Positions 1 through 44,456 of a stretch of 64,000 nt of DNA are shown here, piece after piece; positions within the stretch are counted from its first letter, which is position 1; every line of letters begins with the position of its first letter. The stretch spans positions 6,998,805-7,062,804 of the forward strand of contig OY365818.1 of the NCBI GenBank assembly GCA_959347315.1, in the 5' to 3' direction. The position numbers and the translations under genes are program-made. The stretch is from Bimastos eiseni (lineage: Eukaryota > Annelida > Clitellata > Crassiclitellata > Lumbricidae). The notes under the pieces were generated by a model. The model worked only from the letters and a program-made list of their open reading frames with translations. It made no database searches and was not told the origin of the DNA.

Positions 1-3000
1 TGTCACTGCTGGTGGATTTGTCTCTGTTTCAGTTACGTCAATGGGTGTTACAGATTCTGTCACTGCTGGTAGATTTGTCTCTGCTTCAGTTACGTCATTG
101 GGTGTTACAGATTCTGTCACTGCTGGTGGATTTGTCTCTGTTTCAGTTACGTCAATGGGTGTTTCAGATCCTGTAACTGCTGGTGGAATCGTCTCTGTTT
201 CAGTTACGTCAATGGGTGTTACAGATTCTGTCACTGCTGGTGGATTTGTCTCTGTTTCAGTTGCGTCATTGGGTGTTACAGATTCTGTAACTGCTTGTGG
301 ATTTGACTTTGTTTCAGTTACGTCAATGGGTGTCACAGATTCTGTAACCGCTGGTGGATTTGACTTTGTTTCAGTTACGTCAATGGGTGTCACAGATTCT
401 GTAACTTCTGGTGGGATCGTCTGTGTTTCAGTTACGTCAATGGGTGTTACAGATTCTGTCACTGCTGGTGGATTTGACTCTGTTTCAGTTACGTCAATGG
501 GTGTTACAGATTCTGTCACTGCTGGTGCATTTGTCTCTGTTTCAGTAACGTCAATGGGTGTTACAGATTCTGTCACTGCTGGTGGATTTGGCTTTGTTTC
601 AGTTACGTCAATGGGTGTCACAGATTCTGTCACTGCTTGTGCATTTGTCTCTGTTTCAGTAGCGTCAATGGGTGTTACAGATTCTGTCACTGCTGGTGGA
701 TTTGTCCCTGTTTCAGTTACGTCAATGGGTGTTACAGATTCTGTCACTGCTGGTGGATTTGTCTCTGTTTCAGTTACGTCAATGGGTGTTTCAGATTCTG
801 TAACTGCTGGGGGAATCGTCTCTGTTTTAGCTACGTCAATGGGTGTTACAGATTCTGTCACTGCTGGTGGATTTGTCTCGGTTTCAGTTACGTCAATGGG
901 TGCTACAGATTCTGTCACTGCTGGTAGATTTGTCTCTGCTTCAGTTACGTCATTGGGTGTTACAGATTCTGTAACTGCTGGTGGAATCGTCTCTGTTTCA
1001 GTTACGTCAATGGGTGTTACAGATTCTGTCACTGCTGGTGGATTTGTCTCTGCTTCAGTTGCGTCATTGGGTGTTACAGATTCTGTCACTGCTTGTAGAT
1101 TTGACTTTGTTTCAGTTACGTCAATGGGTGTTACAGATTCTGTAACTTCTGGTGGGATCGTCTGTGTTTCAGTTACGCCAATGGCTGTTGCAGATTCTGT
1201 CACTGCTGGTGGATTTGACTCTGTTTCAGTTACGTCAATGGGTGTTACAGATTCTGTCACTGCTGGTGCATTTGTCTCTGTTTCAGTAACGTCAATGGGT
1301 GTTACAGATTCTGTCACTGCTGGTGGATTTGGCTTTGTTTCAGTTACGTCAATGGGTGTCACAGATTCTGTCACTGCTTGTGCATTTGTCTCTGTTTCAG
1401 TAGCGTCAATGGGTGTTACAGATTCTGTCACTGCTGGTGGATTTGTCCCTGTTTTAGTTACGTCAATGGGTGTTACAGATTCTGTCACTGCTGGTGGATT
1501 TGTCTCTGTTTCAGTTACGTCAATGGGTGTTTCAGATTCTGTAACTGCTGGTGGAATCGTCTCTGTTTCAGCTACGTCAATGGGTGTTACAGATTCTGTC
1601 ACTGCTGGTGGATTTGTCTCTGTTTCAGTTACGTCAATAGGTGTTGCAGATTCTGTTACTTCCGGCGGATTTGTCTCGGTTTCATTTACGTCAATGGGTG
1701 TTACAGTTTCTGTCACTGCTGGTGGATTTGGCTTTGTTTCAGTTACGTCAATGGGTGTCACAGATTCTGTCACTGCTTGTGCATTTGTCTCTGTTTCAGT
1801 AGCGTCAATGGGTGTTACAGATTCTGTCACTGCTGGTGGATTTGTCCCTGTTTCAGTTACGTCAATGGGTGTTACAGATTCTGTCACTGCTGGTGGATTT
1901 GTCTCTGTTTCAGTTACGTCAATGGGTGTTTCAGATTCTGTAACTGCTGGTGGAATCGTCTCTGTTTCAGTTACGTCATTGGGTGTTACAGATTCTGTCA
2001 CTGCTGGTGGATTTGTCTCTGTTTCAGTTACGTCAATGGGTGTTACAGATTCTGCCACTGCTGGTGGATTTGACTCTGTTTCAGTTACGTCAATGGGTGT
2101 TACAGATTCTGTCATTGCTGGTGGATTTGACTCTGTTTCAGTTACGTCAATGGGTGTTACAGATTCTGTCACTGCTGGTGGATTTGTCTCTGTTTCAGTT
2201 ACGTCAATGGGTGTTACAGATTCTGTCATTGCTGGTGGATTTGACTCTGTTTCAGTTACGTCAATGGGTGTTACAGATTCTGTCACTGCTGGTGGATTTG
2301 TCTCTGTTTCAGTTACGTCAATAGGTGTTGCAGATTCTGTTACTTCCGGCGGATTTGTCTCGGTTTCATTTACGTCAATGGGTGTTACAGATTCTGTCAC
2401 TGCTGGTGGATTTGACTCTGTTTCAGTTACGTCAATGGGTGTTACAGATTCTGTCACTGCTGGTGGATTTGTCTCTGTTTCAGTTACGTCAATAGGTGTT
2501 GCAGATTCTGTTACTTCCGGCGGATTTGTCTCGGTTTCATTTACGTCAATGGGTGTTACAGATTCTGTCACTGCTGGTGGATTTGGCTTTGTTTCAGTTA
2601 CGTCAATGGGTGTTACAGATTCTGTCATTGCTGGTGGATTTGACTCTGTTTCAGTTACGTCAATGGGTGTTACAGATTCTGTCACTGCTGGTGGATTTGT
2701 CTCTGTTTCAGTTACGTCAATGGGTGTTACAGATTCTGTCATTGCTGGTGGATTTGACTCTGTTTCAGTTACGTCAATGGGTGTTACAGATTCTGTCACT
2801 GCTGGTGGATTTGGCTTTGTTTCAGTTACGTCAATGGGTGTTACAGATTCTGTCATTGCTGGTGGATTTGACTCTGTTTCAGTTACGTCAATGGGTGTTA
2901 CAGATTCTGTCATTGCTGGTGGATTTGACTCTGTTTCAGTTACGTCAATGGGTGTTACAGATTCTGTCACTGCTGGTGGATTTGTCTCTGTTTCAGTTAC

Positions 3001-6000
3001 GTCAATGGGTGTTACAGATTCTGTCATTGCTGGTGGATTTGACTCTGTTTCAGTTACGTCAATGGGTGTTACAGATTCTGTCACTGCTGGTGGATTTGTC
3101 TCTGTTTCAGTTACGTCAATAGGTGTTGCAGATTCTGTTACTTCCGGCGGATTTGTCTCGGTTTCATTTACGTCAATGGGTGTTACAGATTCTGTCACTG
3201 CTGGTGGATTTGACTCTGTTTCAGTTACGTCAATGGGTGTTACAGATTCTGTCACTGCTGGTGGATTTGTCTCTGTTTCAGTTACGTCAATGGGTGTTAC
3301 AGATTCTGTCATTGCTGGTGGATTTGACTCTGTTTCAGTTACGTCAATGGGTGTTACAGATTCTGTCACTGCTGGTGGATTTGTCTCTGTTTCAGTTACG
3401 TCAATGGGTGTTACAGATTCTGTCACTGCTGGTGGATTTGACTCTGTTTCAGTTACGTCAATGGGTGTTACAGATTCTGTCATTGCTGGTGGATTTGACT
3501 CTGTTTCAGTTACGTCAATGGGTGTTACAGATTCTGTCACTGCTGGTGGATTTGTCTCTGTTTCAGTTACGTCAATAGGTGTTGCAGATTCTGTTACTTC
3601 CGGCGGATTTGTCTCGGTTTCATTTACGTCAATGGGTGTTACAGATTCTGTCACTGCTGGTGGATTTGACTCTGTTTCAGTTACGTCAATGGGTGTTACA
3701 GATTCTGTCATTGCTGGTGGATTTGACTCTGTTTCATTTACGTCAATGGGTGTTACAGATTCTGTCACTGCTGGTGGATTTGGCTTTGTTTCAGTTACGT
3801 CAATGGGTGTTACAGATTCTGTCATTGCTGGTGGATTTGACTCTGTTTCAGTTACGTCAATGGGTGTTACAGATTCTGTCACTGCTGGTGGATTTGTCTC
3901 TGTTTCAGTTACGTCAATGGGTGTTACAGATTCTGTCATTGCTGGTGGATTTGACTCTGTTTCAGTTACGTCAATGGGTGTTACAGATTCTGTCATTGCT
4001 GGTGGATTTGACTCTGTTTCAGTTACGTCAATGGGTGTTACAGATTCTGTCACTGCTGGTGGATTTGTCTCTGTTTCAGTTACGTCAATGGGTGTTACAG
4101 ATTCTGTCATTGCTGGTGGATTTGACTCTGTTTCAGTTACGTCAATGGGTGTTACAGATTCTGTCACTGCTGGTGGATTTGTCTCTGTTTCAGTTACGTC
4201 AATAGGTGTTGCAGATTCTGTTACTTCCGGCGGATTTGTCTCGGTTTCATTTACGTCAATGGGTGTTACAGATTCTGTCACTGCTGGTGGATTTGACTCT
4301 GTTTCAGTTACGTCAATGGGTGTTACAGATTCTGTCACTGCTGGTGGATTTGTCTCTGTTTCAGTTACGTCAATAGGTGTTGCAGATTCTGTTACTTCCG
4401 GCGGATTTGTCTCGGTTTCATTTACGTCAATGGGTGTTACAGATTCTGTCACTGCTGGTGGATTTGGCTTTGTTTCAGTTACGTCAATAGGTGTCACAGA
4501 TTCTGTCACTGCTTGTGCATTTGTCTCTGTTTCAGTAGCGTCAATGGGTGTTACAGATTCTGTCACTGCTGGTGGATTTGTCCCTGTTTCAGTTGCGTCA
4601 ATGGGTGTTACAGATTCTGTGAATGCTGGTGGATTTGTCTCTGTTTCAGTTACGTCAATGGGTGTTTCAGATTCTGTAACTGCTGGTGGAATCGTCTCTG
4701 TTTCAGTTACGTCAATGGGTGTTACAGATTCTGTCACTGCTGGTGGATTGGACTCTGTTTCAGTTACGTCAATGGGTGTTACAGATTCTGTCACTGCTGG
4801 TGGATTTGACTCTGTTTCAGTTACGTCAATGGGTGTTACAGATTCTGTCACTGCTGGTGGATATGTCTCGGTTTCAGTTACGTCAATGGGTGTTACAGAT
4901 TCTGTCACTGCTGGTGGATTTGACTCTGTTTCAGTTACGTCAATGGGTGTTACAGATTCTGTCACTGCTTGTGCATTTGTCTCTGTTTCAGCTACGTCAA
5001 TGGGTGTTACAGATTCTGTCACTGCTGGTGGATTTGTCTCTGTTTCAGTTACGTCAATGGGTGTTTCAGATTCTGTCACTGCTGGTGGATTTGTCTCTGT
5101 TTCAGTTACGTCATTGGGTGTTATAGATTCTGTCACTGCTGGTGGATTTGTCTCTGTTTCAGTGACGTCATTGGGTGTCACAGATTCTGTCACTGCTGGT
5201 GTATTTGAATCTGTTTCAGTTACGTCAATGGGTGTTACAGATTCTGTCACTGCTGGTAGATTTGTCTCTGTTTCAGTTACGTCAATGGGTGTTACAGATT
5301 CTGTAACTGCTGGTGGATTTGTTTGTGTTTCAGTTACGTCATTAGGTGTTACAGATTCTGTCACTGCTGGTAGATTTGACTCTGTTTTAGTTGCGTCATT
5401 GGGTGTTACAGATTCTGTCACTGCTGGTGGATTTGTCTCTGTTTCAGTTACGTCAATGGGTGTTACAGATTCTGTCACTGCTGGTAGATTTGTCTCTGTT
5501 TCAGTTACGTCATTGGGTGTTACAGATTCTGTCACTGCTGGTGGATTTGTCTCTGTTTCAGTTACGTCAATGGGTGTTTCAGATCCTGTAACTGCTGGTG
5601 GAATCGTCTCTGTTTCAGTTACGTCAATGGGTGTTACAGATTCTGTCACTGCTGGTGGATTTGTCTCTGTTTCAGTTGCGTCATTGGGTGTTACAGATTC
5701 TGTCACTGCTTGTGGATTTGACTTTGTTTCAGTTACGTCAATGGGTGTCACAGATTCTGTAACCGCTGGTGGATTTGACTTTGTTTCAGTTACGTCAATG
5801 GGTGTCACAGATTCTGTAACTTCTGGTGGGATCGTCTGTGTTTCAGTTACGTCAATGGGTGTTACAGATTCTGTCACTGCTGGTGGATTTGTCTCTGTTT
5901 CAGTTACGTCAATGGGTGTTACAGATTCTGTCACTGCTGGTGGATTTGTCTCTGTTTCAGTTACGTCAATGGGTGTTTCAGATTCTGTAACTGCTGGTGG

Positions 6001-9000
6001 AATCGTCTCTGTTTCAGTTACGTCATTGGGTGTTACAGATTCTGTCACTGCTGGTGGATTTGTCTCTGTTTCAGTTACGTCAATGGGTGTTACAGATTCT
6101 GCCACTGCTGGTGGATTTGACTCTGTTTCAGTTACGTCAATGGGTGTTACAGATTCTGTCATTGCTGGTGGATTTGACTCTGTTTCAGTTACGTCAATGG
6201 GTGTTACAGATTCTGTCACTGCTGGTGGATTTGTCTCTGTTTCAGTTACGTCAATGGGTGTTACAGATTCTGCCACTGCTGGTGGATTTGACTCTGTTTC
6301 AGTTACGTCAATGGGTGTTACAGATTCTGTCATTGCTGGTGGATTTGACTCTGTTTCAGTTACGTCAATGGGTGTTACAGATTCTGTCACTGCTGGTGGA
6401 TTTGTCTCTGTTTCAGTTACGTCAATAGGTGTTGCAGATTCTGTTACTTCCGGCGGATTTGTCTCGGTTTCATTTACGTCAATGGGTGTTACAGATTCTG
6501 TCACTGCTGGTGGATTTGGCTTTGTTTCAGTTACGTCAATAGGTGTCACAGATTCTGTCACTGCTTGTGCATTTGTCTCTGTTTCAGTAGCGTCAATGGG
6601 TGTTACAGATTCTGTCACTGCTGGTGGATTTGTCCCTGTTTCAGTTGCGTCAATGGGTGTTACAGATTCTGTGAATGCTGGTGGATTTGTCTCTGTTTCA
6701 GTTACGTCAATGGGTGTTTCAGATTCTGTAACTGCTGGTGGAATCGTCTCTGTTTCAGTTACGTCAATGGGTGTTACAGATTCTGTCACTGCTGGTGGAT
6801 TGGACTCTGTTTCAGTTACGTCAATGGGTGTTACAGATTCTGTCACTGCTGGTGGATTTGACTCTGTTTCAGTTACGTCAATGGGTGTTACAGATTCTGT
6901 CACTGCTGGTGGATATGTCTCGGTTTCAGTTACGTCAATGGGTGTTACAGATTCTGTCACTGCTGGTGGATTTGACTCTGTTTCAGTTACGTCAATGGGT
7001 GTTACAGATTCTGTCACTGCTTGTGCATTTGTCTCTGTTTCAGCTACGTCAATGGGTGTTACAGATTCTGTCACTGCTGGTGGATTTGTCTCTGTTTCAG
7101 TTACGTCAATGGGTGTTTCAGATTCTGTCACTGCTGGTGGATTTGTCTCTGTTTCAGTTACGTCATTGGGTGTTATAGATTCTGTCACTGCTGGTGGATT
7201 TGTCTCTGTTTCAGTGACGTCATTGGGTGTCACAGATTCTGTCACTGCTGGTGTATTTGAATCTGTTTCAGTTACGTCAATGGGTGTTACAGATTCTGTC
7301 ACTGCTGGTAGATTTGTCTCTGTTTCAGTTACGTCAATGGGTGTTACAGATTCTGTAACTGCTGGTGGATTTGTTTGTGTTTCAGTTACGTCATTAGGTG
7401 TTACAGATTCTGTCACTGCTGGTAGATTTGACTCTGTTTTAGTTGCGTCATTGGGTGTTACAGATTCTGTCACTGCTGGTGGATTTGTCTCTGTTTCAGT
7501 TACGTCAATGGGTGTTACAGATTCTGTCACTGCTGGTAGATTTGTCTCTGTTTCAGTTACGTCATTGGGTGTTACAGATTCTGTCACTGCTGGTGGATTT
7601 GTCTCTGTTTCAGTTACGTCAATGGGTGTTTCAGATCCTGTAACTGCTGGTGGAATCGTCTCTGTTTCAGTTACGTCAATGGGTGTTACAGATTCTGTCA
7701 CTGCTGGTGGATTTGTCTCTGTTTCAGTTGCGTCATTGGGTGTTACAGATTCTGTCACTGCTTGTGGATTTGACTTTGTTTCAGTTACGTCAATGGGTGT
7801 CACAGATTCTGTAACCGCTGGTGGATTTGACTTTGTTTCAGTTACGTCAATGGGTGTCACAGATTCTGTAACTTCTGGTGGGATCGTCTGTGTTTCAGTT
7901 ACGTCAATGGGTGTTACAGATTCTGTCTCTGCTGGTGGATTTGACTCTGTTTCAGTTACGTCAATGGGTGTTACAGATTCTGTCACTGCTGGTGCATTTG
8001 TCTCTGTTTCAGTAACGTCAATGGGTGTTACAGATTCTGTCACTGCTGGTGGATTTGGCTTTGTTTCAGTTACGTCAATGGGTGTCACAGATTCTGTCAC
8101 TGCTTGTGCATTTGTCTCTGTTTCAGTAGCGTCAATGGGTGTTACAGATTCTGTAACTGCTGGTGGATTTGTCCCTGTTTCAGTTACGTCAATGGGTGTT
8201 ACAGATTCTGTCACTGCTGGTGGATTTGTCTCGGTTTCAGTTACGTCAATGGGTGTTTCAGATTCTGTAACTGCTGGGGGAATCGTCTCTGTTTCAGCTA
8301 CGTCAATGGGTGTTACAGATTCTGTAACTGCTGGTGGATTTGACTCTGTTTCAGTTACGTCAATGGGTGTTACAGATTCTGTCACTGCTGGTGGATTTGT
8401 CCCTGTTTGAGTTACGTCAATGGGTGTTACAGATTCTGTCACTGCTGGTGGATTTGTCTCTGTTTCAGTTACGTCAATGGGTGTTTCAGATTCTGTAACT
8501 GCTGGTGGAATCGTCTCTGTTTCAGTTACGTCAATGGGTGTTACAGATTCTGTCACTGCTGGTGGATTTGTCTCTGTTTCAGTTACGTCAATGGGTGTTA
8601 CAGATTCTGCCACTGCTGGTGGATTTGACTCTGTTTCAGTTACGTCAATGGGTGTTACAGATTCTGTCATTGCTGGTGGAATCGTCTCTGTTTCAGTTAC
8701 GTCAATGGGTGTTACAGATTCTGTCACTGCTGGTGGATTTGTCTCTGTTTCAGTTACGTCAATGGGTGTTACAGATTCTGCCACTGCTGGTGGATTTGAC
8801 TCTGTTTCAGTTACGTCAATGGGTGTTACAGATTCTGTCATTGCTGGTGGATTTGACTCTGTTTCAGTTACGTCAATGGGTGTTACAGATTCTGTCACTG
8901 CTGGTGGATTTGTCTCTGTTTCAGTTACGTCAATGGGTGTTACAGATTCTGTCACTGCTGGTGGATTTGTCTCTGTTTCAGTTACGTCAATGGGTGTTAC

Positions 9001-12000
9001 AGATTCTGCCACTGCTGGTGGATTTGACTCTGTTTCAGTTACGTCAATGGGTGTTACAGATTCTGTCATTGCTGGTGGATTGGACTCTGTTTCAGTTACG
9101 TCAATGGGTGTTACAGATTCTGTCACTGCTGGTGGATTTGGCTTTGTTTCAGTTACGTCAATAGGTGTCACAGATTCTGTCACTGCTTGTGCATTTGTCT
9201 CTGTTTCAGTAGCGTCAATGGGTGTTACAGATTCTGTCACTGCTGGTGGATTTGTCCCTGTTTCAGTTGCGTCAATGGGTGTTACAGATTCTGTCACTGC
9301 TGGTGGATTTGTCCCTGTTTCAGTTACGTCAATGGGTGTTACAGATTCTGTCACTGCTGGTGGATTTGTCTCTGTTTCAGTTACGTCAATGGGTGTTTCA
9401 GATTCTGTAACTGCTGGTGGAATCGTCTCTGTTTCAGTTACGTCAATGGGTGTTACAGATTCTGTCACTGCTGGTGGATTTGTCTCTGTTTCAGTTACGT
9501 CAATGGGTGTTACAGATTCTGCCACTGCTGGTGGATTTGACTCTGTTTCAGTTACGTCAATGGGTGTTACAGATTCTGTCACTGCTGGTGGATTTGACTC
9601 TGTTTCAGTTACGTCAATGGGTGTTACAGATTCTGTCACTGCTTGTGCATTTGTCTCTGTTTCAGGTACGTCAATGGGTGTTACAGATTCTGTCACTGCT
9701 GGTGGATTTGTCTCTGTTTCAGTTACGTCAATGGGTGTTTCAGATTCTGTCACTGCTGGTGGATTTGTCTCTGTTTCAGTTACGTCATTGGGTGTTACAG
9801 ATTCTGTCACTGCTGGTGGATTTGTCTCTGTTTCAGTGACGTCATTGGGTGTCACAGATTCTGTCACTGCTGGTGTATTTGAATCTGTTTCAGTTACGTC
9901 AATGGGTGTTACAGATTCTGTCACTGCTGGTAGATTTGTCTCTGTTTCAGTTACGTCAATGGGTGTTACAGATTCTGTAACTGCTGGTAGATTTGTCTCT
10001 GTTTCAGTTACGTCAATGGGTGTTACAGACTCTGTCACTGCTGGTGGATTTGGCTTTGTTTCAGTTACGTCAATGGGTGTCACAGATTCTGTCACTGCTT
10101 GTGCATTTGTCTCTGTTTCAGTAGCGTCAATGGGTGTTACAGATTCTGTCACTGCTGGTGCATTTGTCTCTGTTTCAGTAACGTCAATGGGTGTTACAGA
10201 TTCTGTCACTGCTGGTGGATTTGGCTTTGTTTCAGTTACGTCAATGGGTGTTTCAGATTCTGTAACTGCTGGGGGAATCGTCTCTGTTTCAGCTACGTCA
10301 ATGGGTGTTACAGATTCTGTAACTGCTGGTGGATTTGACTCTGTTTCAGTTACGTCAATGGGTGTTACAGATTCTGTCACTGCTGGTGGATTTGTCTCGG
10401 TTTCAGTTACGTCAATGGGTGTTACAGATTCTGTAACCGCTGGTGGATTTGACTTTGTTTCAGTTACGTCAATGGGTGTCACAGATTCTGTAACTTCTGG
10501 TGGGATCGTCTGTGTTTCAGTTACGTCATTGGGTGTTACAGATTCTGTCACTGCTGGTAGATTTGTCTCTGTTTCAGTTACGTCAATGGGTGTTACAGAC
10601 TCTGTCACTGCTGGTGGATTTGGCTTTGTTTCAGTTACGTCAATGGGTGTCACAGATTCTGTCACTGCTTGTGCATTTGTCTCTGTTTCAGTAGCGTCAA
10701 TGGGTGTTACAGATTCTGTCACTGCTGGTGGATTTGACTCTGTTTCAGTTACGTCAATGGGTGTTACAGATTCTGTCACTGCTGGTGGATTTGACTCTGT
10801 TTCAGTTACGTCAATAGGTGTTACAGATTCTGTCACTGCTGGTGCATATGTCTCTGTTTCAGTTGCGTCAATGGGTGTTACAGATTCTGTAACTGCTGGT
10901 GGATTCGACTCTGTTTTAGCTACGTCAATAGGCGTTACAGATTCTGTAACTGCCGGTGGGGTCGTCTCGGTTTCAGTTACGTCAATGCTTGTTACAGATT
11001 CTGTCACTGCTGGTGGATTTGACTCTGTTTCAGTTACGTCATTGGGTGTTACAGATTCTGTCACTGCTGGTGGATTTGTCTCTGTTTCAGTTTCGTCAAT
11101 GGGTGTTGCAGTTTCTGTCACTGCTGATGGATTTGACTCTGTTTCAGTTACGTCAATGGGTGTTACAGATTCTGTCACTGCTGGTAGATTTGACTCTGTT
11201 TCAGTTACGTCAATGGGTGTTACAGATTCTGTCACTTTTGGTAGGTTTGACTCTGTTTCAGTTACGTCAATTGGTGTTACAGATTCTGTCATTGCTGGTG
11301 GATTTGACTCTGTTTCAGTTACGTCAATAGGTGTTACAGATTCTGTCACTGCTGGTGCATTTGTCTCTGTTTCAGTTACGTCATTAGGTGTTGCAGTTTC
11401 TGTCACTGCTGATGGATTTGGCTCTGTTTCAGTTACGTCCATAGGTGTTACAGATTCTGTCACTGCTGGTGGATTTGTCTCTGTTTCAGTTACGTCATTG
11501 GGTGTTACAGATTCTGTCACTGCTGGTGGATTTGTCTCTGTTTCAGTTATGTCAATGGGTGTTACAGATTCTGTCACTGCTGGTAGATTTGTCTCTGCTT
11601 CAGTTACGCCATTGGGTGTTACAGATTCTGTCACTGCTGGTGGATTTGACTCTGTTTCAGTTTCGTCAATGGGTGTTACAGATTCTGTTACTGCTGGTAG
11701 ATTTGTCTCTGTTTCATTTACGTCAATGGGTGTTACAGATTCTGTCACTGCTGGTGGATTTGACTCTGTTTCAGTTACATCAATGGGTGTTACAGATTCT
11801 GTCACTGCTGGTGGATTTGTCTCTGTTTCAGTTACGTCAATAGGTGTTGCAGTTTCTGTCACTGCTGGTGGATTTGACTCTGTTTCAGTTACGTCAATGG
11901 GTGTTACAGATTCTGTCACTTCTGGTAGATTTGACTCTGTTTCAGTTACGTTAATGGGTGTTACAGATTCTGTCACTGCTGGTGGATTTGTCTCTGTTTC

Positions 12001-12465
12001 AGTTACGTCAATAGGTGTTACAGATTCTGTCACTGCTGGTGGATTTGTCTCTGTTTCAGTTACGTCAATGGGTGTTACAGATTCTGTCACTGCTGGTGGA
12101 TTTGACTCTGTTTCAGTTACGTCAATGGGTGTTACAGATTCTGTCACTGCTGGTGGATTTGACTCTGTTTCAGTTACGTCAATGGGTGTTACAGATTCTG
12201 TCACTGCTGGTGGATTTGTCTCTGTTTCAGTTACGTCAATAGGTTTTACAGATTCTGTCACTGCTGGTGGATTTGACTCTGTTTCAGTTATGTCAATAGG
12301 TGTTACAGATTCTGTCACTGCTGGTGGATTTGACTCTGTTTCAGTTACGTCAATAGGTGTTACAGATTCTGTAGCTGCTGGTGGATTTGACTTTGTTTCA
12401 GCTACGTCAACAGATGTTACAGATTCTGTCACTGCTGGTGGATTTGACTCTGTTTCAGTTGGGTC
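1..12465. repeat. 57-bp tandem array, 218 in-register units
   Basis: The anchor GTCAATGGG occurs at 37 and again in the last unit at 12463. The distance of 12,426 bp is exactly 218 x 57, so no net frame-changing indel exists. Units differ by point changes. The array continues past the left edge. The most diverged units are at the right end (about 10.8-12.46 kb), next to the start of the gene, as expected when array edges escape homogenisation. Confidence 0.97.
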
Positions 12466-12585
12466 AATGGGTGACGTAGTTGATTCACTTGTGTTTGTTG
12501 CTACTGCTACGTTCAGTCGAAAGACGGAGGAAGCTAAGGCGAGAACTGTCAATGCTCTTAACAATGAATCTGATCGTTTCTGCAT
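1..12585 (-). CDS. giant secreted mucin-like repeat protein, 5' part (runs off left edge)
   Basis: Reading the minus strand from the ATG at 12585-12583, the frame stays open to base 1: 4,195 codons without a stop. It begins MQKRSDSLLRALTVLALA, continues through a short hydrophobic stretch to about residue 25, then a TNTS sequon. This is a typical signal peptide, with A at -3 of the start codon. After about 40 residues the protein becomes 218 tandem 19-residue units with consensus TNPPAVTESVTPIDVTETE. Each unit carries about six Thr/Ser, three Pro and five acidic residues, almost no Lys or Arg, and no Cys. This composition is known from mucin PTS domains and secreted acidic glycoproteins, so dense O-glycosylation is likely. 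Unit variants are mild in this frame (TNLPAV, TNAPAV, TIPPAV, TNPPEV, NPPAMT). No in-frame TAA, TAG or TGA was found in any unit variant. The C-terminus and further exons lie outside the window. The exact function (mucus, adhesive, coat) is unknown. Confidence 0.82.
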   Translation of the reverse strand, partial: MQKRSDSLLRALTVLALASSVFRLNVAVATNTSESTTSPIDPTETESNPPAVTESVTSVDVAETKSNPPAATESVTPIDVTETESNPPAVTESVTPIDITETESNPPAVTESVKPIDVTETETNPPAVTESVTPIDVTETESNPPAVTESVTPIDVTETESNPPAVTESVTPIDVTETETNPPAVTESVTPIDVTETETNPPAVTESVTPINVTETESNLPEVTESVTPIDVTETESNPPAVTETATPIDVTETETNPPAVTESVTPIDVTETESNPPAVTESVTPIDVNETETNLPAVTESVTPIDETETESNPPAVTESVTPNGVTEAETNLPAVTESVTPIDITETETNPPAVTESVTPNDVTETETNPPAVTESVTPMDVTETEPNPSAVTETATPNDVTETETNAPAVTESVTPIDVTETESNPPAMTESVTPIDVTETESNLPKVTESVTPIDVTETESNLPAVTESVTPIDVTETESNPSAVTETATPIDETETETNPPAVTESVTPNDVTETESNPPAVTESVTSIDVTETETTPPAVTESVTPIDVAKTESNPPAVTESVTPIDATETETYAPAVTESVTPIDVTETESNPPAVTESVTPIDVTETESNPPAVTESVTPIDATETETNAQAVTESVTPIDVTETKPNPPAVTESVTPIDVTETETNLPAVTESVTPNDVTETQTIPPEVTESVTPIDVTETKSNPPAVTESVTPIDVTETETNPPAVTESVTPIDVTETESNPPAVTESVTPIDVAETETIPPAVTESETPIDVTETKPNPPAVTESVTPIDVTETETNAPAVTESVTPIDATETETNAQAVTESVTPIDVTETKPNPPAVTESVTPIDVTETETNLPAVTESVTPIDVTETETNLPAVTESVTPIDVTETDSNTPAVTESVTPNDVTETETNPPAVTESVTPNDVTETETNPPAVTESETPIDVTETETNPPAVTESVTPIDVPETETNAQAVTESVTPIDVTETESNPPAVTESVTPIDVTETESNPPAVAESVTPIDVTETETNPPAVTESVTPIDVTETETIPPAVTESETPIDVTETETNPPAVTESVTPIDVTETGTNPPAVTESVTPIDATETGTNPPAVTESVTPIDATETETNAQAVTESVTPIDVTETKPNPPAVTESVTPIDVTETESNPPAMTESVTPIDVTETESNPPAVAESVTPIDVTETETNPPAVTESVTPIDVTETETNPPAVTESVTPIDVTETESNPPAMTESVTPIDVTETESNPPAVAESVTPIDVTETETNPPAVTESVTPIDVTETETIPPAMTESVTPIDVTETESNPPAVAESVTPIDVTETETNPPAVTESVTPIDVTETETIPPAVTESETPIDVTETETNPPAVTESVTPIDVTQTGTNPPAVTESVTPIDVTETESNPPAVTESVTPIDVAETETIPPAVTESETPIDVTETETNPPAVTESVTPIDVTETGTNPPAVTESVTPIDATETETNAQAVTESVTPIDVTETKPNPPAVTESVTPIDVTETETNAPAVTESVTPIDVTETESNPPAETESVTPIDVTETQTIPPEVTESVTPIDVTETKSNPPAVTESVTPIDVTETKSNPQAVTESVTPNDATETETNPPAVTESVTPIDVTETETIPPAVTGSETPIDVTETETNPPAVTESVTPNDVTETETNLPAVTESVTPIDVTETETNPPAVTESVTPNDATKTESNLPAVTESVTPNDVTETQTNPPAVTESVTPIDVTETETNLPAVTESVTPIDVTETDSNTPAVTESVTPNDVTETETNPPAVTESITPNDVTETETNPPAVTESETPIDVTETETNPPAVTESVTPIDVAETETNAQAVTESVTPIDVTETESNPPAVTESVTPIDVTETETYPPAVTESVTPIDVTETESNPPAVTESVTPIDVTETESNPPAVTESVTPIDVTETETIPPAVTESETPIDVTETETNPPAFTESVTPIDATETGTNPPAVTESVTPIDATETETNAQAVTESVTPIDVTETKPNPPAVTESVTPIDVNETETNPPEVTESATPIDVTETETNPPAVTESVTPIDVTETESNPPAMTESVTPIDVTETESNPPAVAESVTPIDVTETETNPPAVTESVTPIDVTETESNPPAMTESVTPIDVTETESNPPAVAESVTPIDVTETETNPPAVTESVTPNDVTETETIPPAVTESETPIDVTETETNPPAVTESVTPIDVTETETNPPAVTESVTPIDVTETQTIPPEVTESVTPIDVTETKSNPPAVTESVTPIDVTETKSNPQAVTESVTPNDATETETNPPAVTESVTPIDVTETETIPPAVTGSETPIDVTETETNPPAVTESVTPNDVTETETNLPAVTESVTPIDVTETETNPPAVTESVTPNDATKTESNLPAVTESVTPNDVTETQTNPPAVTESVTPIDVTETETNLPAVTESVTPIDVTETDSNTPAVTESVTPNDVTETETNPPAVTESITPNDVTETETNPPAVTESETPIDVTETETNPPAVTESVTPIDVAETETNAQAVTESVTPIDVTETESNPPAVTESVTPIDVTETETYPPAVTESVTPIDVTETESNPPAVTESVTPIDVTETESNPPAVTESVTPIDVTETETIPPAVTESETPIDVTETETNPPAFTESVTPIDATETGTNPPAVTESVTPIDATETETNAQAVTESVTPIDVTETKPNPPAVTESVTPIDVNETETNPPEVTESATPIDVTETETNPPAVTESVTPIDVTETESNPPAVTESVTPIDVNETETNPPEVTESATPIDVTETETNPPAVTESVTPIDVTETESNPPAMTESVTPIDVTETETNPPAVTESVTPIDVTETESNPPAMTESVTPIDVTETESNPPAMTESVTPIDVTETETNPPAVTESVTPIDVTETESNPPAMTESVTPIDVTETKPNPPAVTESVTPIDVNETESNPPAMTESVTPIDVTETESNPPAVTESVTPIDVNETETNPPEVTESATPIDVTETETNPPAVTESVTPIDVTETESNPPAMTESVTPIDVTETESNPPAVTESVTPIDVTETETNPPAVTESVTPIDVTETESNPPAMTESVTPIDVTETETNPPAVTESVTPIDVTETESNPPAVTESVTPIDVNETETNPPEVTESATPIDVTETETNPPAVTESVTPIDVTETESNPPAMTESVTPIDVTETETNPPAVTESVTPIDVTETESNPPAMTESVTPIDVTETESNPPAMTESVTPIDVTETKPNPPAVTESVTPIDVTETESNPPAMTESVTPIDVTETETNPPAVTESVTPIDVTETESNPPAMTESVTPIDVTETKPNPPAVTESVTPIDVNETETNPPEVTESATPIDVTETETNPPAVTESVTPIDVTETESNPPAVTESVTPIDVNETETNPPEVTESATPIDVTETETNPPAVTESVTPIDVTETESNPPAMTESVTPIDVTETETNPPAVTESVTPIDVTETESNPPAMTESVTPIDVTETESNPPAVAESVTPIDVTETETNPPAVTESVTPNDVTETETIPPAVTESETPIDVTETETNPPAVTESVTPIDVTETGTNPPAVTESVTPIDATETETNAQAVTESVTPIDVTETKPNPPAVTETVTPIDVNETETNPPEVTESATPIDVTETETNPPAVTESVTPIDVAETETIPPAVTESETPIDVTETETNPPAVTESVTPIDVTKTGTNPPAVTESVTPIDATETETNAQAVTESVTPIDVTETKPNPPAVTESVTPIDVTETETNAPAVTESVTPIDVTETESNPPAVTESATAIGVTETQTIPPEVTESVTPIDVTETKSNLQAVTESVTPNDATEAETNPPAVTESVTPIDVTETETIPPAVTESVTPNDVTEAETNLPAVTESVAPIDVTETETNPPAVTESVTPIDVAKTETIPPAVTESETPIDVTETETNPPAVTESVTPIDVTETGTNPPAVTESVTPIDATETETNAQAVTESVTPIDVTETKPNPPAVTESVTPIDVTETETNAPAVTESVTPIDVTETESNPPAVTESVTPIDVTETQTIPPEVTESVTPIDVTETKSNPPAVTESVTPIDVTETKSNPQAVTESVTPNDATETETNPPAVTESVTPIDVTETETIPPAVTGSETPIDVTETETNPPAVTESVTPNDVTEAETNLPAVTESVTPIDVTETETNPPAVT
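4282..7927. repeat. higher-order duplication of 28 units (1,594 bp), 2,052-bp offset
   Basis: Bases 4282-5875 and 6334-7927 appear identical, offset by 2,052 bp (36 x 57). They share rare variants such as GTGAATGC, GGATATGTC and GTATTTGAATC. Looser higher-order copies exist at other multiples of 57: offset 741 bp (13 units) between about 500 and 1,240, 5,415 bp (95 units) between 161 and 5576, and 456-627 bp spacings of the CCGGCGG unit between 2.3 and 4.4 kb. This points to recent block duplication by unequal exchange. Confidence 0.88.
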
Positions 12586-13525: not shown

Positions 13526-14473
13526 TATTTTAAGCACAAACTTCTCGGAATCTCTAAGTCTTCAGTCACTCTTTCGTGGTTCTGTATCGATAATCCGAAG
13601 GTTCGATAGTCCGAAGTTCGATAGTCCGAAGGTTCAATAGTCCGAAGGTTCGATAGTCCGAGGATTCGATAATCCGAAGAAAAGTTTCTGGTCCGAAGGT
13701 TCGATAGTTCGAAGGGTCGATAGTCCTAAGGTTCGATAGTCCGAAGGTGCTGCTGCTAGTTAAGATCTTCTCATCATCACCGCTTCCATTTAAACGAGGT
13801 AAATGTGTATTTTAGCGTATTGTTGTCTTGTGGTATTTTACAAAAAATCAAATAGCATATTTTATTAGTATGAACATTACTGCAGGTAACGTACTCAAGA
13901 AAAACGCAGAACCATCTCAAAACAGCTTAATTTACTGATTCAATCCAGCTACTACTTAAGAATAGGATCCCTTTCATCTATCCAGTTTCCATTTAGGTAT
14001 ATTTCTTCTAATCAATCGAGTTTTTGCATACACAGCCTTTCTATTCATCGATTACACTGGAAATCAATCCAGCGTCTACTTAAGCACGATATTTCCAACG
14101 ATCCAGCTTCCATTTTAGCATTATTTCTTTCGTCAACCCAATTACTACTTTTGCAATCATTTATTCGCCACTCAAAGTAGGAAAATTATCATTCATTAGG
14201 CCTACTCCAACTTCTATTTCAACAAGCTTCATTTTCATCCATATATATTGGTTGGAAATGCGCCATAGACATTCTCGTAGTAGCAACTGAAAGAATGAAT
14301 ACCCAATCGATGTCGGAGTATAGAATCTTCGGAGAAGCGAACCTTCGGACTATCGAACCTTAGGCACACTCGAGCTTACACTAATCTTTGGACTATCGAA
14401 CCTTTGGATTATCGAACGGACCCTATTTTAAACATAAATTTCTCGGAATCCCTAAGTCTTCAGTCACTCTTTC
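13526..14473. mobile_element. foldback-like element with tandem-repeat inverted arms and 50-bp flanking direct repeats
   Basis: About ten 15-16-bp units of the type GGTTCGATAGTCCGAA lie at 13586-13749. Inverted copies (TTCGGACTATCGAACC) lie at 14331-14417. The middle (13750-14330) has its own degenerate repeat around AATCCAGC and TACTTAAG. Outside the arms a roughly 50-bp segment containing TCGGAATC and AAGTCTTCAGTCACTCTTTC is directly repeated (13526-13575 and 14424-14473). Inverted arms made of about 15-bp tandem units are known from sea urchin TU foldback transposons. Assignment to that group is inference. Confidence 0.55.
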
Positions 14474-22229: not shown

Positions 22230-25200
22230 CTATTGCTTCAATTCATCCAAGGCTTCATAGATGTGCGAGTTATCTGGATAGTCGTCGCCATCCGGTATTT
22301 CCGAGTAAATATTCGAGGACTTTGGTTTGTCGTTTTCCACTGGTGGCTTATCCATCTCTCCGTCCTTTGTTGCTCTTTCCAAATCCGACTCTCGTCGTAA
22401 TTCCATGTCGTAATCATACTCGTCGTACTCCTCGTCAGAATCAGAGTTCACAACGACATCCGGTTTCGGGCTGGACGCGAGTCTCGTTGTGACGTGGCCA
22501 TTGACGTCAGCGGCCACGTAGATGTTAGCAACGGCTCTAGGTCGGCCGGATTTTGACTCCTCGGTCGTTACGACATCGTCAACCGAACCTTTGCCCTTCC
22601 AGAAATTATCCTGTTTGTCTTCCGCTTCTCTGCGAAGTCTTTGCCTCCTAAAAATGTATTAGACCGCACAGTGATTGAAACTGAACACATTTGATATACT
22701 CTTAAAGTGCATATCAAAAGGTATAGTAGAATGAGTATGGAACAACAGTTTGTAAAGTTAACCCATGTATATGAAGTCCTAGCGACTTATTTTTTATTAA
22801 CAAAAATCATTCGGAACACTTTGTATATTATGGCCCACGCCCTCCAAGACAACCTTCTCGAAGGCGCTCCCAGTCAAAGTTCGGCGATTAAAACCGTTTT
22901 CAGATACTTGTAAAAGCTGTTTGCACAATCTACATAGCTAAGATATCACTCAGAGCTGATGGAAGGTTTTCTAGATAGACGGGCCAACGAGAAGGCACGA
23001 TATTGCATCTCTGATGTGCACACAAGGGAACTACAAGTTCAGCTCAAGACGTCGGACACAGATTTCTCCGAGCAGCAAAAACTTGAGGTGAGGCAACAAA
23101 ACGGTCAAACTAATGTGCTAACAGAGACGGATCCTCTAAATCAATCAAAAACAATGACTACAATAATGAGATACCGCTATTAAACAAATCTACAAGGACT
23201 ACGAGACTCAATCTGAAATTTTTTTAACTCAAAATTATTGTCTCTAGAGGGCGTATACGTCGCTAAAGCTTCGTCAAGCTTTCTCCGTGGTCGGTCCATC
23301 CACTTGGAATGGATTCCCGGTTGCTCTCTTGTCTTCCCCTTACAATGACCTTCCTACTCTTTGCAGGCTATTAGTCATTTCCTTTTAGCCATGGCTGGGA
23401 TGTGAGCACCTCTAAGTAGTCTTGCTTGAAGAGGTGCTAAATAAATTCTCGAAATGAATGAATGAATTATCGATCAGACAAACGAAATACATTAATTGTA
23501 GAATATCTTAGAAGAGTCCTCACCTTCTGTAGAGCGCAAAGTCGATGACAATGACCACTGTACCAATTAGAAGGCAGCCTAATGCCACTGCAATAATGGC
23601 TATAACAGACAATCAGAGCATGTCGGTAAAAAAACTCAATTTACAGGATAAATAAAACGGCGATTTAGCATTTGTATTGGGCAATAATGCCCTATAAGCA
23701 CTGCTGTACTGGAAATTGTGTTGAGCAGTTTATTTTGCATTGTATTGGGAATTGTATCGGGCACTGTCAGAGGCGGCAATCTCGTTTGACAGGTGGGGTA
23801 CACCCAATGAGAGGGGTAGCAAATGCGGGGGACACACGTATAACGTGTCCCCTCTCTATAAAAGGTGGGGGACTTGTCCCTCTGGACCCCTCGGGATCGC
23901 CGCCTCTGCGCGTTGTATTGGACATTATATTTTATGACGTCACATCTACTTGTCTAACTGGCTATTGATCAGGCCTGTGTATTCCACTGCGATTTTCGTT
24001 AAACAGTCAAACGCTTTTGGTGTAAGAGCGCCTTTTTGTTGCATATATATAGAGAAGCATTACTTCCATTTCTGATTCAGCCAGGCGGCCTAAAATAAAT
24101 AATTTTCTGACTGAATCTGCACAGTGCTAACAATTATCACAAACTTAATAAGCTTCCTTCGTATCGCAAAAATGACTTGCAGATAAACATAAATTATCAG
24201 TCAACATAATAGGCCTGTGAACATTTTAGCAATTGATATTTGCCGGTACGTCTTGGAGGTATTATTGTGGTAGTTTGGGTAGGTTATAAAATTTCCATTC
24301 TTAATTCCACGACTTGTGGCCTACGATGCGTAAGAGCTAATATAATGGCATTTGTCTGTAACCTGAGCCTCTCATCTTTTCATCACCGTCAACAGCTTTT
24401 TGTTCGCTTGCCACAGCGCGCACCTCGTCTAAAAGATATATAAACAAGAAATGTAATGTAGAATTTTGCAATGCACCTTATAAATCATAAGTCTATCTTA
24501 CAACTCAGGTAACGCAGCTGAAAATGAGATAGATAGGCATATTGTTAGACAGTGTAAGGTTCGGCAAGGTTAGCGCCTCCGATCTCGAGTTGCGCTATGT
24601 AAGTGTTCTGTTACAACTACAATTACAAAAGGCGACGTTAACTATAAGGTAAGGCAAAGTATGTTATTATAATATTATTAGTGCTAATTAGTAACCTATA
24701 TATAGCGTTTGTGTCCAACGCACAAGAGTTTCAAGACATCAACCGAAGGCACATCTAAATCAAACTACAATCAGGTATATATCCATAAGATCAGTGTGTA
24801 AGACGGAGAGACAGTCAATTGAGGATACGCCTTGAGTTTAAATGAAATGACATGAGCGATTAAACAGAACAGACATTCACAGGAAGATAGTTCCAAAATA
24901 TGGGTCAAGTAGCCGAAAAGTCATTTGCAAAGAACAATTCTTTTATGTATGACCAGAGAAGGATATTAAGATGATCTTGCTACAGTAACACAAGTCTGGT
25001 TTATAAGGACAGTTTCTATTTTCTAACCATTGTTGTGTAAGAGCTAAGATATTTTTTAACTGTGAGCCCCAATTTTAAATAAATCTCAACAGGAGGCCGA
25101 TACAACGCTGCACAGAGGTCACGTGCCCCTGTTTTAAAAGCACTATTATTACCGAAGTTCTAATTTTTCCTAGTGGTTTAAAATTGAAGTCTACTTTGGA

Positions 25201-33645: not shown

Positions 33646-33649
33646 GCTA

Positions 33650-33901
33650 TAAATGGGATTAATTTAATGTTGTTGTAAGGCGCTAAAACAACTTATGTTG
33701 ACGTCAATGGACTTTGTTGTCACAAGATGTCGTTACACTGTGGCTGCATTTATCTCCATGAATCCCAATCGATAATAAATGGGATTAATTTAATGTTGTT
33801 GTAAGGCGCTAAAACAACTTATGTTGACGTCAATGGACGTTGTTGTCACAAGATGGCGTTACACTGTGGCTGCATTTATTTCCATGAATCCCAATCGATA
33901 A
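33650..33901. repeat. 126-bp direct tandem duplication abutting tRNA-Arg
   Basis: Two copies (33650-33775 and 33776-33901), nearly identical, each running from TAAATGGGATTAATTT to CATGAATCCCAATCGATAA. The second copy ends about 7 bases before the tRNA-Arg gene, so the duplicated unit includes its 5' flank but not the tRNA. Confidence 0.93.
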
Positions 33902-33907
33902 TACCAA

Positions 33908-33980
33908 GGGCCTGTGGCGCAATGGATAACGCGTCTGACTACGGATCAGAAGATTCCAGGTTCGACTCCTGGCAGGCTCG
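33908..33980 (+). tRNA. tRNA-Arg (ACG)
   Basis: 73 bases, complete cloverleaf: acceptor GGGCCTG/CAGGCTC with discriminator G, D-loop CGCAATGGATAAC, anticodon stem TCTGA/TCAGA with loop CTACGGA, T-arm CCAGGTTCGACTCCTGG. TTTT follows within ten bases as a Pol III terminator. Almost identical to vertebrate tRNA-Arg-ACG. Confidence 0.97.
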
Positions 33981-34060
33981 AAATGTTTTGAAGACATCGC
34001 AGACCGATTGCCGTTTGCATGTTGCACTCGCCAAAAATTCCTACAGTTGTTAGCGGACAT

Positions 34061-34227
34061 CAGTGGTGGCTGTTCAGGGAAGGTCAGAAGGATCAGTGCC
34101 CCACCCGGTGACCTCCAAATTTCAGTCCACTTTCAGTTTTGAAAAACTGGACAACCAACTGGCCGCTGTGTCAGGTTCCCGGCCCCTCCGTGGCCACCTC
34201 TGTTGGAACAGTCTAGAACCACCACTG
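34061..34227. mobile_element. MITE with CAGTGGTGG ends
   Basis: Ends CAGTGGTGG and CCACCACTG. Internal GATCAGTGCCCCACC and CCCGGCCCCTCCGTGG are similar to 57.2-57.4 kb and in part to 15.5 kb. No flanking duplication was found (GCGGACAT versus ACGCTAAA), so the ends are provisional. Confidence 0.55.
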
Positions 34228-34343
34228 ACGCTAAAGTGAGATCCTTGGGACTGCCCGAAATATGACTGTTGATGTCGTCAGGTAGTAACTCTCCTTTATG
34301 ACATTTCCGGGTTTCATTAGTCGGGTAGCTAAGATATAAACGA

Positions 34344-34414
34344 GCATCGGTGGTTCAGTGGTAGAATGCTCGCCTGCCACGCGGGCGGCCCGGGTTCGAT
34401 TCCCGGCCGATGCA
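34344..34414 (+). tRNA. tRNA-Gly (GCC)
   Basis: 71 bases. Acceptor GCATCGG/CCGATGC with A73, A-box TGGTTCAGTGG, anticodon loop CTGCCAC, T-arm CCGGGTTCGATTCCCGG. TTTT follows at 34417. Confidence 0.97.
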
Positions 34415-34655
34415 CATTTTGAACATTCATGCCAACGCACAGTTGTCAGTTAACTTCTGAAGTTCTGACTAACTGTGAACATGGCTTTTGCGGTCGTTCT
34501 TGTGCTGTAACTTTTGGTGCAGTATCTGTAGAGACCCTTCATAGAAGTCAATAAAGTACGTAAAGAAGAGAATCACCAGTGAATGTTGCTACAGCGTGCC
34601 ACAATAACCGTCATAGGAGAGTCAAGGTCCGTTGACTACCACACGTTGTCGTCTT

Positions 34656-34726
34656 GCATCGGTGGTTCAGTGGTAGAATGCTCGCCTGCCACGCGGGCGG
34701 CCCGGGTTCGATTCCCGGCCGATGCA
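34656..34726 (+). tRNA. tRNA-Gly (GCC), second copy
   Basis: Identical in all stems to the copy at 34344, 312 bp downstream. Followed by CATTTTATG, giving a Pol III T-stretch. Flanks differ beyond about ten bases. Confidence 0.97.
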
Positions 34727-36190
34727 CATTTTATGTCAGGTGGCTCAACATTAACTAAGAAGAGGAAATTGTATTTTTTTCTTTAGTCCCAAGAAAGGCT
34801 GAAGAACAGAGCGCTCAGCCACTGCCAATATGATATTTCTTTATAAAAGGTTCTTATGTGAGTTCCTAAGTCAACACAACTAATTTCAGCACAGAATAAC
34901 CTACAAATTCCGATATTATATCGGAAACCGATGTTATATTATATTTATTATATCTAGGCCTGTTTGCTTTCGAGACATGAAGGCTTTAACACTTCACAGA
35001 GAATGATACGTAGGACAAGAAGGATTAGAAGCAGAGTAGAGCGGTGTTAGAGACGCCAGACCGATGGTGTACCTGGAAAAAGGCTGACCAAAGTATTCAA
35101 AGCGGCAGAGATGTCAGAGGCAGAAGTCATTATGGTGGGTGAAGGCAGAGACCAGCCTTCTGTTGGTCTTCAGAGAAGTACGTGGGCTAGGATTACTGCA
35201 GGGTGTTGTTTAATGGATCAAGACTGCTGGGTGTTGAGGAGTGAGTTGGAGGGAGAGATAGTAGTTGGACAGGGTATGGACTATTCTTTCAGTTAATTTA
35301 TTACAGAAGCGAGAGACTGATTATGGGACGTTAGTTAGATGGATTTCCTTGTCAATGGACAATGGTTGCTCTGTTGTGCATGGAAGAGTCGAGAAAAAAC
35401 TATTTAAAGACCACAGGGAGGCTGGCAGTAAAGAGTGAGAGATTGCTGATTTTGGTTATAAGGCCTACAGAAACAAGGATCGATTACGATGACTATTAAT
35501 TCATCGATAACATAATTAATCATTGTTTAGTACGACTACTCGCTACATTGTTTGCTTCATTGATTGTAGGCCTACTAACACCTTGAGCTTTGCCTTACGG
35601 AATGCGTCATTGGTCAAAGTGCCTCATTTGACGATATGTAGTTCATGATAAAATAATCCACGATGCCATACAAATTGTAGAGCGTTTAATAGTGTTATTT
35701 GTAGAATGTCTCAAAATAAACTGGTGACGGTTTATCTGTTCACGTAAGTTCATTGTTTTGCATTTAATCTTGTTCTTTGTTCTAATGCGCAAGAAATTAT
35801 TATACACTGCATTGGAATGACTGTGTTTAAGAACGAAAGTGTGAGTGTGATGCCCTATGTACGAAAACTGAGAGCGAAACCATTAAATTTTAAGTGGCAG
35901 TCGCATTTGCATGCAAATCATATTACCCAATGAGTGGTTACGTTAATCGTCCTTTGTATATCAGTATCCTGACAAGGACGATTTGTAATTATAATTAATT
36001 GAAAATCTGTTATCGTGCCTTGTATGACAGATGTATTATTTACAAACAACTATAACTAATCATAAATGCAGGTTGGTTAGGCATTCATTTAAGATTTGAG
36101 ACATAGAACCGGAGCATGTGCTAAATTTTGAGGAACGTGTAATGATAGTTTGCAATTTTTATTTTTATTTTGCTTTTGCTGTTCATTTAG
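34727..36190. other. intergenic between tRNA-Gly and the membrane-protein gene
   Basis: No confident gene. The short ORF near 35111-35296 and the purine-rich text before it may be retroelement debris, but no motif is clear. Upstream of 36190 a T-rich stretch ending TTCATTTAG looks like a splice acceptor, suggesting a 5' UTR intron for the next gene. Confidence 0.35.
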
Positions 36191-36223
36191 GCATGCTTGC
36201 TTGAACAGCAACTGAATTCAGTC

Positions 36224-40455: not shown

Positions 40456-41735
40456 TTGTATGGAACCGATTCTGGATTATGTGGATCGTGTAGTCATGAA
40501 CGTATGAATATTTCTGGTAGCCCAGAGGTGGAAGGAGGTCCACATTGATTAGAAACATGACAAATGAATGAAAATAGTTTGAATCGAGACATGATTACTT
40601 GACTTTCTTACTCGTTGCTTATGAGGGTGTAGATTTTAAAGTGAAGTTGAATTGAAAGAGTAAGATTGAATGGTGTATAATTTGTCTCCGTCACCACTTC
40701 CAGGTTCCACGGACTGTTGAAAGGTGACACTTTTATTTTGGAGCCGTCTTTAGAAACTTTGAGTAGCATTGGTCCAGAAGTTTACCGATCATTGAACAGA
40801 GCCACAAAATAACCAAGTTTGAGATTTGTTCATGACCCTAATTAAATATTTAGAGTTTGCCAGAAGTGAAAACTGGAGTCTTCCGATTTGTAAACTTTTG
40901 TTTAACTAATTAATTAGATTCATTAGTAGAACAGTAATTATTATGACAATGTGAAACCCTTTTCTGAAAATTTTGGTTCTGTATTATGGACCTGGTTCAT
41001 CCCTATCTAGGTGATGTAGGCGATGCTCTTACTATCATTTGGACAACCCCTCTGATTTGACGCAGCGCTCGTGAATAGGCTGGTGCTCTGCACTTGGTTT
41101 TCAAGTGGAACTTTCAAAGTTTGGAGATTATGATTACTACATAGTGGTAGTGGTAGTTTAGTGGGTGATTATGTTATGTTGATGCCAAGGAAAATGACCT
41201 TGATGGTGATAATGAGGAGGACACTTGATTGTAGTGATAAAGTTTAGTCACAGATGACCGGGTGTTTTTAACGGATCAAATTGTAAAGAAACTCTTTCTG
41301 CAATATGATCAAGCTATTCCATAGACACGTCAAAACATTTACTTCGAGATTGGCGTGGAAGCTGACGTTTGCTTGGGCTTTCCAGATTTATAAGGAAGAC
41401 TCCAAATGGATCATTCCTATCATTTATTTTCTGAAGGTATGATTACTTAACACTTTCTAAGCGAGATTTAATCGCCGACTGGTTTTGTTGTGACTATTGA
41501 TTTTTTTTTTTCATTCTAAACTGGACTCTGAACTGTTGCTGATTTTATTGGTTTTGAATGTCGACTTGTAATTGTTTCTATTATAAGAAGCAAACTATGG
41601 ATATACATTTTTCTTCGTGAAACTGGATATATATTTGCTGCTAGTGTTTTGTTCTGAAATAAAACAAAGTCTGTTGGCTTAATGAGTGTAGATTCTAGTT
41701 TTAGTAGACACTTTTAAAGACTATCTTCTTGGTTT
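40456..41735 (+). other. 3' UTR / downstream flank of the membrane-protein gene
   Basis: Starts after the TGA at 40453-40455. AATAAA occurs at 41658-41663 and ATTAAA near 40842. Either could be the polyadenylation signal. A LINE 3'-end fragment (CAGCGCTCGTGAATAGGCTG) at 41040-41145 lies inside, which would make a long UTR unusual. Confidence 0.4.
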
Positions 41736-44312: not shown

Positions 44313-44456
44313 TTGAGAGCTAAGTAAGTGAGGCGTTGTTCTTAAGAAGAATATTATTTTCATTTTGTGACAAATTCATAAGGTTAATATTGTCCTAAGC
44401 GTGCAAACAAGCATACAATATTTCACCGCACTTTGTATGAGATTATTAAAACATTT

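Follow-up and report, generated by a model that had tools for sequence, protein, structure and literature searches.

The tandem array at the left end of the window, the 64,000-nucleotide stretch of DNA analysed here (C13:6998805-7062804), is very probably the predicted coding first exon of a giant membrane-anchored mucin gene, g1, which is one of five paralogues (g1 to g5) with unrelated repeats. The window comes from a 29.5-Mb contig in an assembly of 660 Mb and 118 contigs, and its base 1 is genome base 6998805. The minus-strand frame had earlier been described as running off the edge of the DNA; this edge is where the window was cut, and the contig continues leftward. When the contig was followed to the left for a stop or a next exon, as had been proposed, the frame was found to stay open to 8,400 codons and to end in a donor with predicted exons beyond. 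Since the coding tests from within the array were weak, the long frame was not counted as proof, and the status of g1 as a gene rests on the DNA beyond the edge, namely the frame of 8,400 codons and the conserved downstream exons.

The repeat array and its reading frame

The frame inside the window was reproduced as given by the sequence-only reading: from the ATG at 12585 it is stop-free to base 1, a distance of 4,195 codons, and TAA is found in frame 15 codons upstream of the ATG. A 46-residue N-terminus comes first and is followed, without any change of register, by 218 complete 57-bp units and the first 21 bases of another (Table 1), and TRF gave 218.8 copies with 0% indels for the array in the window. 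The earlier count of 218 repeats stood with respect to the units in register, but the exact sequence TNPPAVTESVTPIDVTETE is present in only 32 of the 218. Among the 218 units, 68 variants were counted at the protein level and 89 at the DNA level, and the mean DNA identity to the consensus was 95.5%.

Table 1. Predicted features of g1 and first exons of its four paralogues. Ranges written with two dots count from window base 1; the others are positions on contig C13.
Feature	Position	Strand	Basis or remark
Start codon and predicted signal peptide (29 residues, MQKRSDSLLRALTVLALASSVFRLNVAVA)	12499..12585	-	Crude rule; DNA around the ATG resembles the g3 start
Degenerate, shortened first repeat, TNTSESTTSPIDPTETE (51 nt vs 57)	12448..12498	-	
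Units 1-218 of the 57-bp/19-aa repeat, consensus TNPPAVTESVTPIDVTETE	22..12447	-	TRF and register count
Beginning of unit 219; array goes on past the window	1..21	-	
Window part of predicted exon A (12,585 of 25,201 nt, about half)	1..12585	-	
g1 exon A (predicted)	C13:7011389-6986189 (left of window: 6986189-6998804)	-	Open frame to donor
g1 exon B (predicted)	C13:6985348-6985194	-	Place, phase, alignment; found only with its own sequence
g1 exon C (predicted)	C13:6983264-6983200	-	g4 and g5 queries (E 0.003, 4e-4); moderate
g1 exon D (predicted)	C13:6982601-6982420	-	blastp; weak
g1 exon E (predicted)	C13:6981560-6981392	-	blastp; weak
g1 exon F (predicted)	C13:6980391-6980230	-	g3, g4, and g5 queries, E 3e-14 (g3) to 1.2e-9; strong
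g2 exon A (predicted)	6967217-6963794	-	
g3 exon A (predicted)	6949495-6946717	-	
g4 exon A (predicted)	C13:6918007-6929536	-	3,843 codons; about 71% Thr+Ser+Pro; 19-residue repeat unrelated to that of g1
g5 exon A (predicted)	6898830-6898398	-	144 codons

The acidic, mucin-like composition rich in Thr, Ser, and Pro was confirmed for the visible part of the protein. After residue 30, this part comprises 4,165 residues (434 kDa, pI 4.05, net charge -830) with 31% Thr+Ser, 15% Pro, and about 20% Asp+Glu, and it contains no Arg, Cys, Trp, or His. The N-terminus passes a crude signal-peptide rule, which called for a basic n-region, a hydrophobic core at least as strong as this one, and small residues at -3/-1. 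The match is modest evidence when taken alone because, among the 160 other ATG frames of the window (at least 46 codons, outside the array), 7 satisfy this rule as well. An AlphaFold model of ten units gave low-confidence strands (mean pLDDT 56.8, pTM 0.39), by which a possible solenoid fold of the repeats is neither shown nor excluded. A promoter scan and an alignment of the upstream DNA to the repeat produced nothing above chance. Two stretches of a 16-bp minisatellite (TCGATAGTCCGAAGGT type) lie just upstream of g1, at window positions 13587-13748 and 14313-14417.

With the extension past the window, predicted exon A reaches 25,201 nt, or 8,400 codons without a stop, in agreement with the very large protein originally proposed. 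The 19-residue repeat comprises 422 units, all in register, with 120 DNA variants, 94 protein variants, and 60 exact units, and is followed by about 20 diverged units of a second, 14-residue, Ser/Thr-rich repeat, QSTESPVSTTTGTT. The exon closes at the phase-1 donor TCA|GTAAGA; it has 32% Thr+Ser, with 2,650 Thr/Ser after residue 30. The other frames of the 422-unit array carry 1,039 and 877 stops in the sense direction and 169, 4, and 186 in the antisense direction. A plus-strand gene was rejected on account of these stops, which occur in every antisense frame (4 at best). The minus strand, which had been named as the gene strand, is supported; the predicted downstream exons and the four paralogues all lie on it. 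In the second repeat domain the sense frame has 0 stops against 3.6 expected among the unit variants, and one antisense frame is also stop-free (0.9 expected). Exact duplications of blocks of 38 and 27 units were observed within the array. They suggest recent copying of blocks, so that the precise number of units may vary with the assembly.

A run of 4,195 open codons is not sufficient to establish a gene, since among random 57-mers with the array's composition 95% are open in one or more of the six frames (2.46 on average). Variants in the sense frame were counted as 20 synonymous, 46 nonsynonymous, and 0 stop, against 18.8, 46.3, and 0.9 expected, and N/S inside the repeats was 0.93 of expectation, which is near neutral. 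Radical changes and the loss of Thr/Ser were marginally low (P 0.065 and 0.076); the retention of Thr/Ser and of charge among the array variants was not significant and not above chance. The frequency of open frames in random units, the near-neutral substitutions, and the seven other frames passing the signal-peptide rule favor a noncoding minisatellite, in which the 57-bp unit would be open by chance and would adjoin a chance signal-peptide-like stretch. This explanation was nevertheless deemed extremely improbable, as all 422 of 422 units are in register, the frame carries on through a second PTS repeat of unrelated sequence, and related genes with the same build are found in the neighborhood.

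Downstream exons and the five-gene cluster

The exons downstream of exon A were revealed by comparison of translated segments left of the window. For g1 their predicted products are a stretch resembling SEA, a module with 10 cysteines, a transmembrane helix, and a tail that is basic. The blastp matches of exons D and E had E values of 0.002 with g4 and of 0.006 and 0.007 with g2 and g3. Exon F encodes GIVGAVLLGLIIAVVILGV, followed by KPHKK, and at least one additional tail exon common to g1, g2, and g3 lies beyond the modelled exon F. The predicted junction phases in g1 are 1 (A/B), 0 (B/C), 2 (C/D), 1 (D/E), and 2 (E/F). The splice sites were selected manually among the candidates, with preference for a conserved position and phase, and part of the agreement in phase therefore reflects this choice. 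For the acceptor of exon E, g2 and g4 each have a better-scoring candidate in a different phase, and g3 has a better-scoring alternative that is also in phase 1; three exon C acceptors end in AAG, and the exon D donor of g2 is weak or uncertain.

A tblastn search with the C-termini of g1, g3, g4, and g5 against 6838805-7092804 (6,000 N within the 224 kb of it counted) yielded five minus-strand genes at E<=0.05 and no more. The genes g2 to g5 lie within about 130 kb after g1, with exons B to F ordered as in g1, matching predicted intron phases, and all exons on the minus strand. The donor of exon A is in phase 1 and that of exon E in phase 2 in all five genes. Exon C is 65 nt long in four genes and 71 nt in g4, and exon D is 182, 182, 182, and 188 nt long in g1, g3, g4, and g5, respectively. 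For exons E+F, dN/dS was 0.15 to 0.48 in 8 of 10 pairs (g1/g3 0.15, g1/g4 0.19, g2/g4 0.23, g4/g5 0.24, g3/g5 0.26, g3/g4 0.29, g2/g5 0.32, and g2/g3 0.48), with g1/g2 and g1/g5 saturated; most of these values were obtained at a dS of 1.3 to 2.6, and dS was <1 only in g2/g3 (0.48) and g4/g5 (0.24). Between -19 and +87, the start DNA of g1 and g3 is similar, with a score of 36 where the highest among 60 shuffles was 30, and the other six of the 7 gene pairs tested do not beat shuffles in this region.

The repeat period is 19 residues in g1, 28 in g2, 39 in g3, and 19 in g4, with none evident in g5. No 6-residue word is common to the PTS parts in 9 of 10 gene pairs, and the remaining pair, g4/g5, has two such words, pure Ser/Thr. 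With Thr+Ser at 32 to 57% in exon A of g1 to g4 and at 33% in g5, all five qualify as PTS domains as these are defined in the excerpt of PMC1552070; Pro reaches only 3% in g2 and 6% in g3. In these comparisons the anchors are conserved across the paralogues and the rods are not.

No convincing relative was found in Pfam (first 400 residues), viral contigs, PDB, phages, or one protein search (residues 1-200), which is compatible with the lineage-specific repeat suggested earlier but does not prove it. A match to yeast NSP1 (E=7.8e-8) was judged compositional. The same holds for a metagenome protein, P0001 (E=1.3e-6, 39% identity over 60% of the query), which was the single match at E<=0.001 among 7,991 candidates scored. 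No such invertebrate cluster was seen in the titles and abstract starts among the literature matches listed (e.g., the best 8 of 14,549).

Several other features were noted in and near the window. Seven tRNA genes (four Gly-GCC, two Arg-ACG, and one Trp-CCA; two on the minus strand) are located at window positions 33908-44529, adjoined by a 126-bp tandem duplication at 33649-33903. On the minus strand, an open frame at 22233-22658 closes with the tyrosine-rich tail NIYSEIPDGDDYPDNSHIYEALDELKQ and resembles a receptor at its cytoplasmic end, with no Pfam family above the cut-off, and a 245-residue ATG frame at 53354-54088 has a sub-threshold GoLoco match (E=0.0051). Two exon-like minus-strand frames with hydrophobic helices, at 46495-46902 and 50177-50764, perhaps belong to one membrane protein gene; a homologue search with the latter found none. 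Collagen-like Gly-X-Y exons lie right of the window on the minus strand (C13:7071393-7073914).

The predicted membrane anchor

The protein had been taken to be secreted. This part of the earlier interpretation was found to be unsupported because the model predicts a membrane anchor: in the phase-matched predicted exons a transmembrane helix precedes Lys/Arg, an arrangement common to the four neighboring genes. By hydropathy alone, a single helix was recognized in all five genes, with a Kyte-Doolittle mean of 2.8 to 3.1 over 19 residues ahead of the Lys/Arg. A secreted, unanchored mucin would result if exon A were unspliced or otherwise spliced and ended at the in-exon stop after ...SLEIYSFISLYFIFLV. 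This stop lies in the same frame 19 codons past the donor, 12.67 kb left of the window, and some of the g1 anchor exons match those of the paralogues weakly. Secreted splice forms exist for membrane mucins, which was also counted in favor of this form. Against it, the phase-1 donor TCA|GTAAGA precedes the stop and has an equivalent in all five genes, and the relationship of the g1 helix exon to its counterparts in the other genes is clear. The secreted form was deemed very unlikely, and the membrane-anchored form is preferred.

The stretch encoded by exons B to D resembles a SEA domain, although this is suggestive only. The curated Pfam cut-off for SEA was not reached: g3 alone was reported, with E=3e-4 and 21.3 bits vs 26.4, and Pfam SEA gave no row for the C-termini of g1, g4, and g5 or the B-D part of g2. 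When a four-sequence family profile was compared with PDB, the SEA domain of ADGRF1 ranked first (E=0.0058) and 1ivz third (E=0.24). With a five-sequence B-D profile, the values were 0.05 for ADGRF1 and 0.1 for 1ivz, with the unrelated CsaA between them at 0.093. The entry 1ivz (mouse 1110008I14RIK) is presumably a SEA domain of the MUC16 type. Gly-Ser is the self-cleavage point of SEA domains, and within the SEA-like stretch it is present in g1 alone of the five genes, where KNGSINAEYNV resembles RNGSIVAGYEV of ADGRF1. The likeness to the ADGRF1 and 1ivz domains is limited by the weak scores and by the lack of the Gly-Ser pair in 4 of the 5 paralogues.

Exons E and F encode 10 cysteines, which do not vary among the four genes aligned and also occur in g2. 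In our reading this module may be EGF-like; no Pfam EGF family was above the cut-off, and only Pvs28_EGF appeared, in one of four C-termini (E=0.0084). Neither a VWD nor a cystine-knot domain was reported by Pfam for the modelled C-termini or for residues 1-400 of g1. The CBT2 domains of Drosophila Muc68E, which we take to be chitin-binding, were likewise not found by Pfam here.

Taken together, g1 likely works like a membrane mucin of the SEA/EGF/TM type, a class in which its membership is not proven. The same anchor could in principle carry an acidic, little-glycosylated rod with a non-mucin function, such as ion or mineral binding or the stalk of a receptor or sensor. Consistent with this are the Asp+Glu content of about 20% and net charge of -830 in the visible part, the low Pro in exon A of g2 and g3, and matches to Mid2, a cell-wall sensor family, that were below the cut-off in all four C-termini (best E=0.012). 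A non-mucin function was considered very unlikely given the 32% Thr+Ser with Pro nearby in g1, the Thr+Ser+Pro content of g4, and the resemblance of the build to SEA/EGF/TM mucins.

Known mucins and the proposed role of the cluster

A close likeness in build is to the human MUC3 cluster at 7q22, which the excerpt of PMC9578598 describes as the neighboring membrane-mucin genes MUC3A, MUC3B, MUC12, and MUC17. According to the same excerpt, the MUC3 genes have a giant PTS exon 2 (15,873 bp in MUC3A and 39,267 bp in MUC3B) followed by small SEA, transmembrane, and tail exons, and divergence is greater in the PTS exon than at the ends (PMC9578598). The present cluster likewise has adjacent genes with one giant 5' PTS exon and then small exons. 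It belongs to another lineage, and its SEA matches are sub-threshold; the likeness is one of build, with no claim of orthology. It differs further in the strongly acidic 19-aa repeat of g1 (Glu/Asp about 20%) and in paralogues that have no common repeat words, bar the two Ser/Thr words of one pair.

Among invertebrate mucins, Drosophila Muc68E is described in the excerpt of PMC4938639 as having a signal peptide and homogenised, fast-evolving repeats with expansions and contractions and the acidic motif P[ED][ED][ST][ST][ST]. In its homogenised acidic repeats and its putative signal peptide g1 is similar; Muc68E differs by its three CBT2 domains (PMC4938639), and the present genes have a predicted transmembrane helix. 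Mucin repeats are described as in-frame, exonic, and gaining or losing copies in the excerpts of PMC4997351 and PMC12776774, and this holds for both MUC7 and g1. The retention of Thr/Ser that the excerpt of PMC4997351 gives for MUC7 was not seen in the g1 array.

In the proposed model, the signal peptide would route the chain into the secretory pathway, and the Thr/Ser of the repeats would be O-glycosylated to give a stiff, highly acidic rod. The SEA-like, cysteine-rich stalk and the transmembrane helix would keep this rod at the cell surface, where it could form a charged glycocalyx or barrier. The array would evolve by unequal exchange, as suggested by the exact duplication of as many as 38 units in one block, and the anchor would be maintained. 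Since the arrays turn over in this way and the anchor does not, each paralogue would have grown its own rod. The cluster can then be viewed, somewhat tentatively, as a natural swap experiment: one SEA/Cys/TM anchor in five genes may bear independently grown, unrelated glycan rods (19, 28, 39, and 19 residues, and one short repeat-less arm), with the strongly acidic rod of g1 reaching 8,400 codons and the g1 anchor alone keeping a Gly-Ser self-cleavage site for shedding.

A satellite-like gene of this kind becomes recognizable through the short, conserved exons downstream of it. The rapid evolution of mucin repeats makes them difficult to compare between species; with five related anchors and unrelated repeats, one of them short and non-repetitive, the birth and growth of the rods would be readable here against a fixed background.
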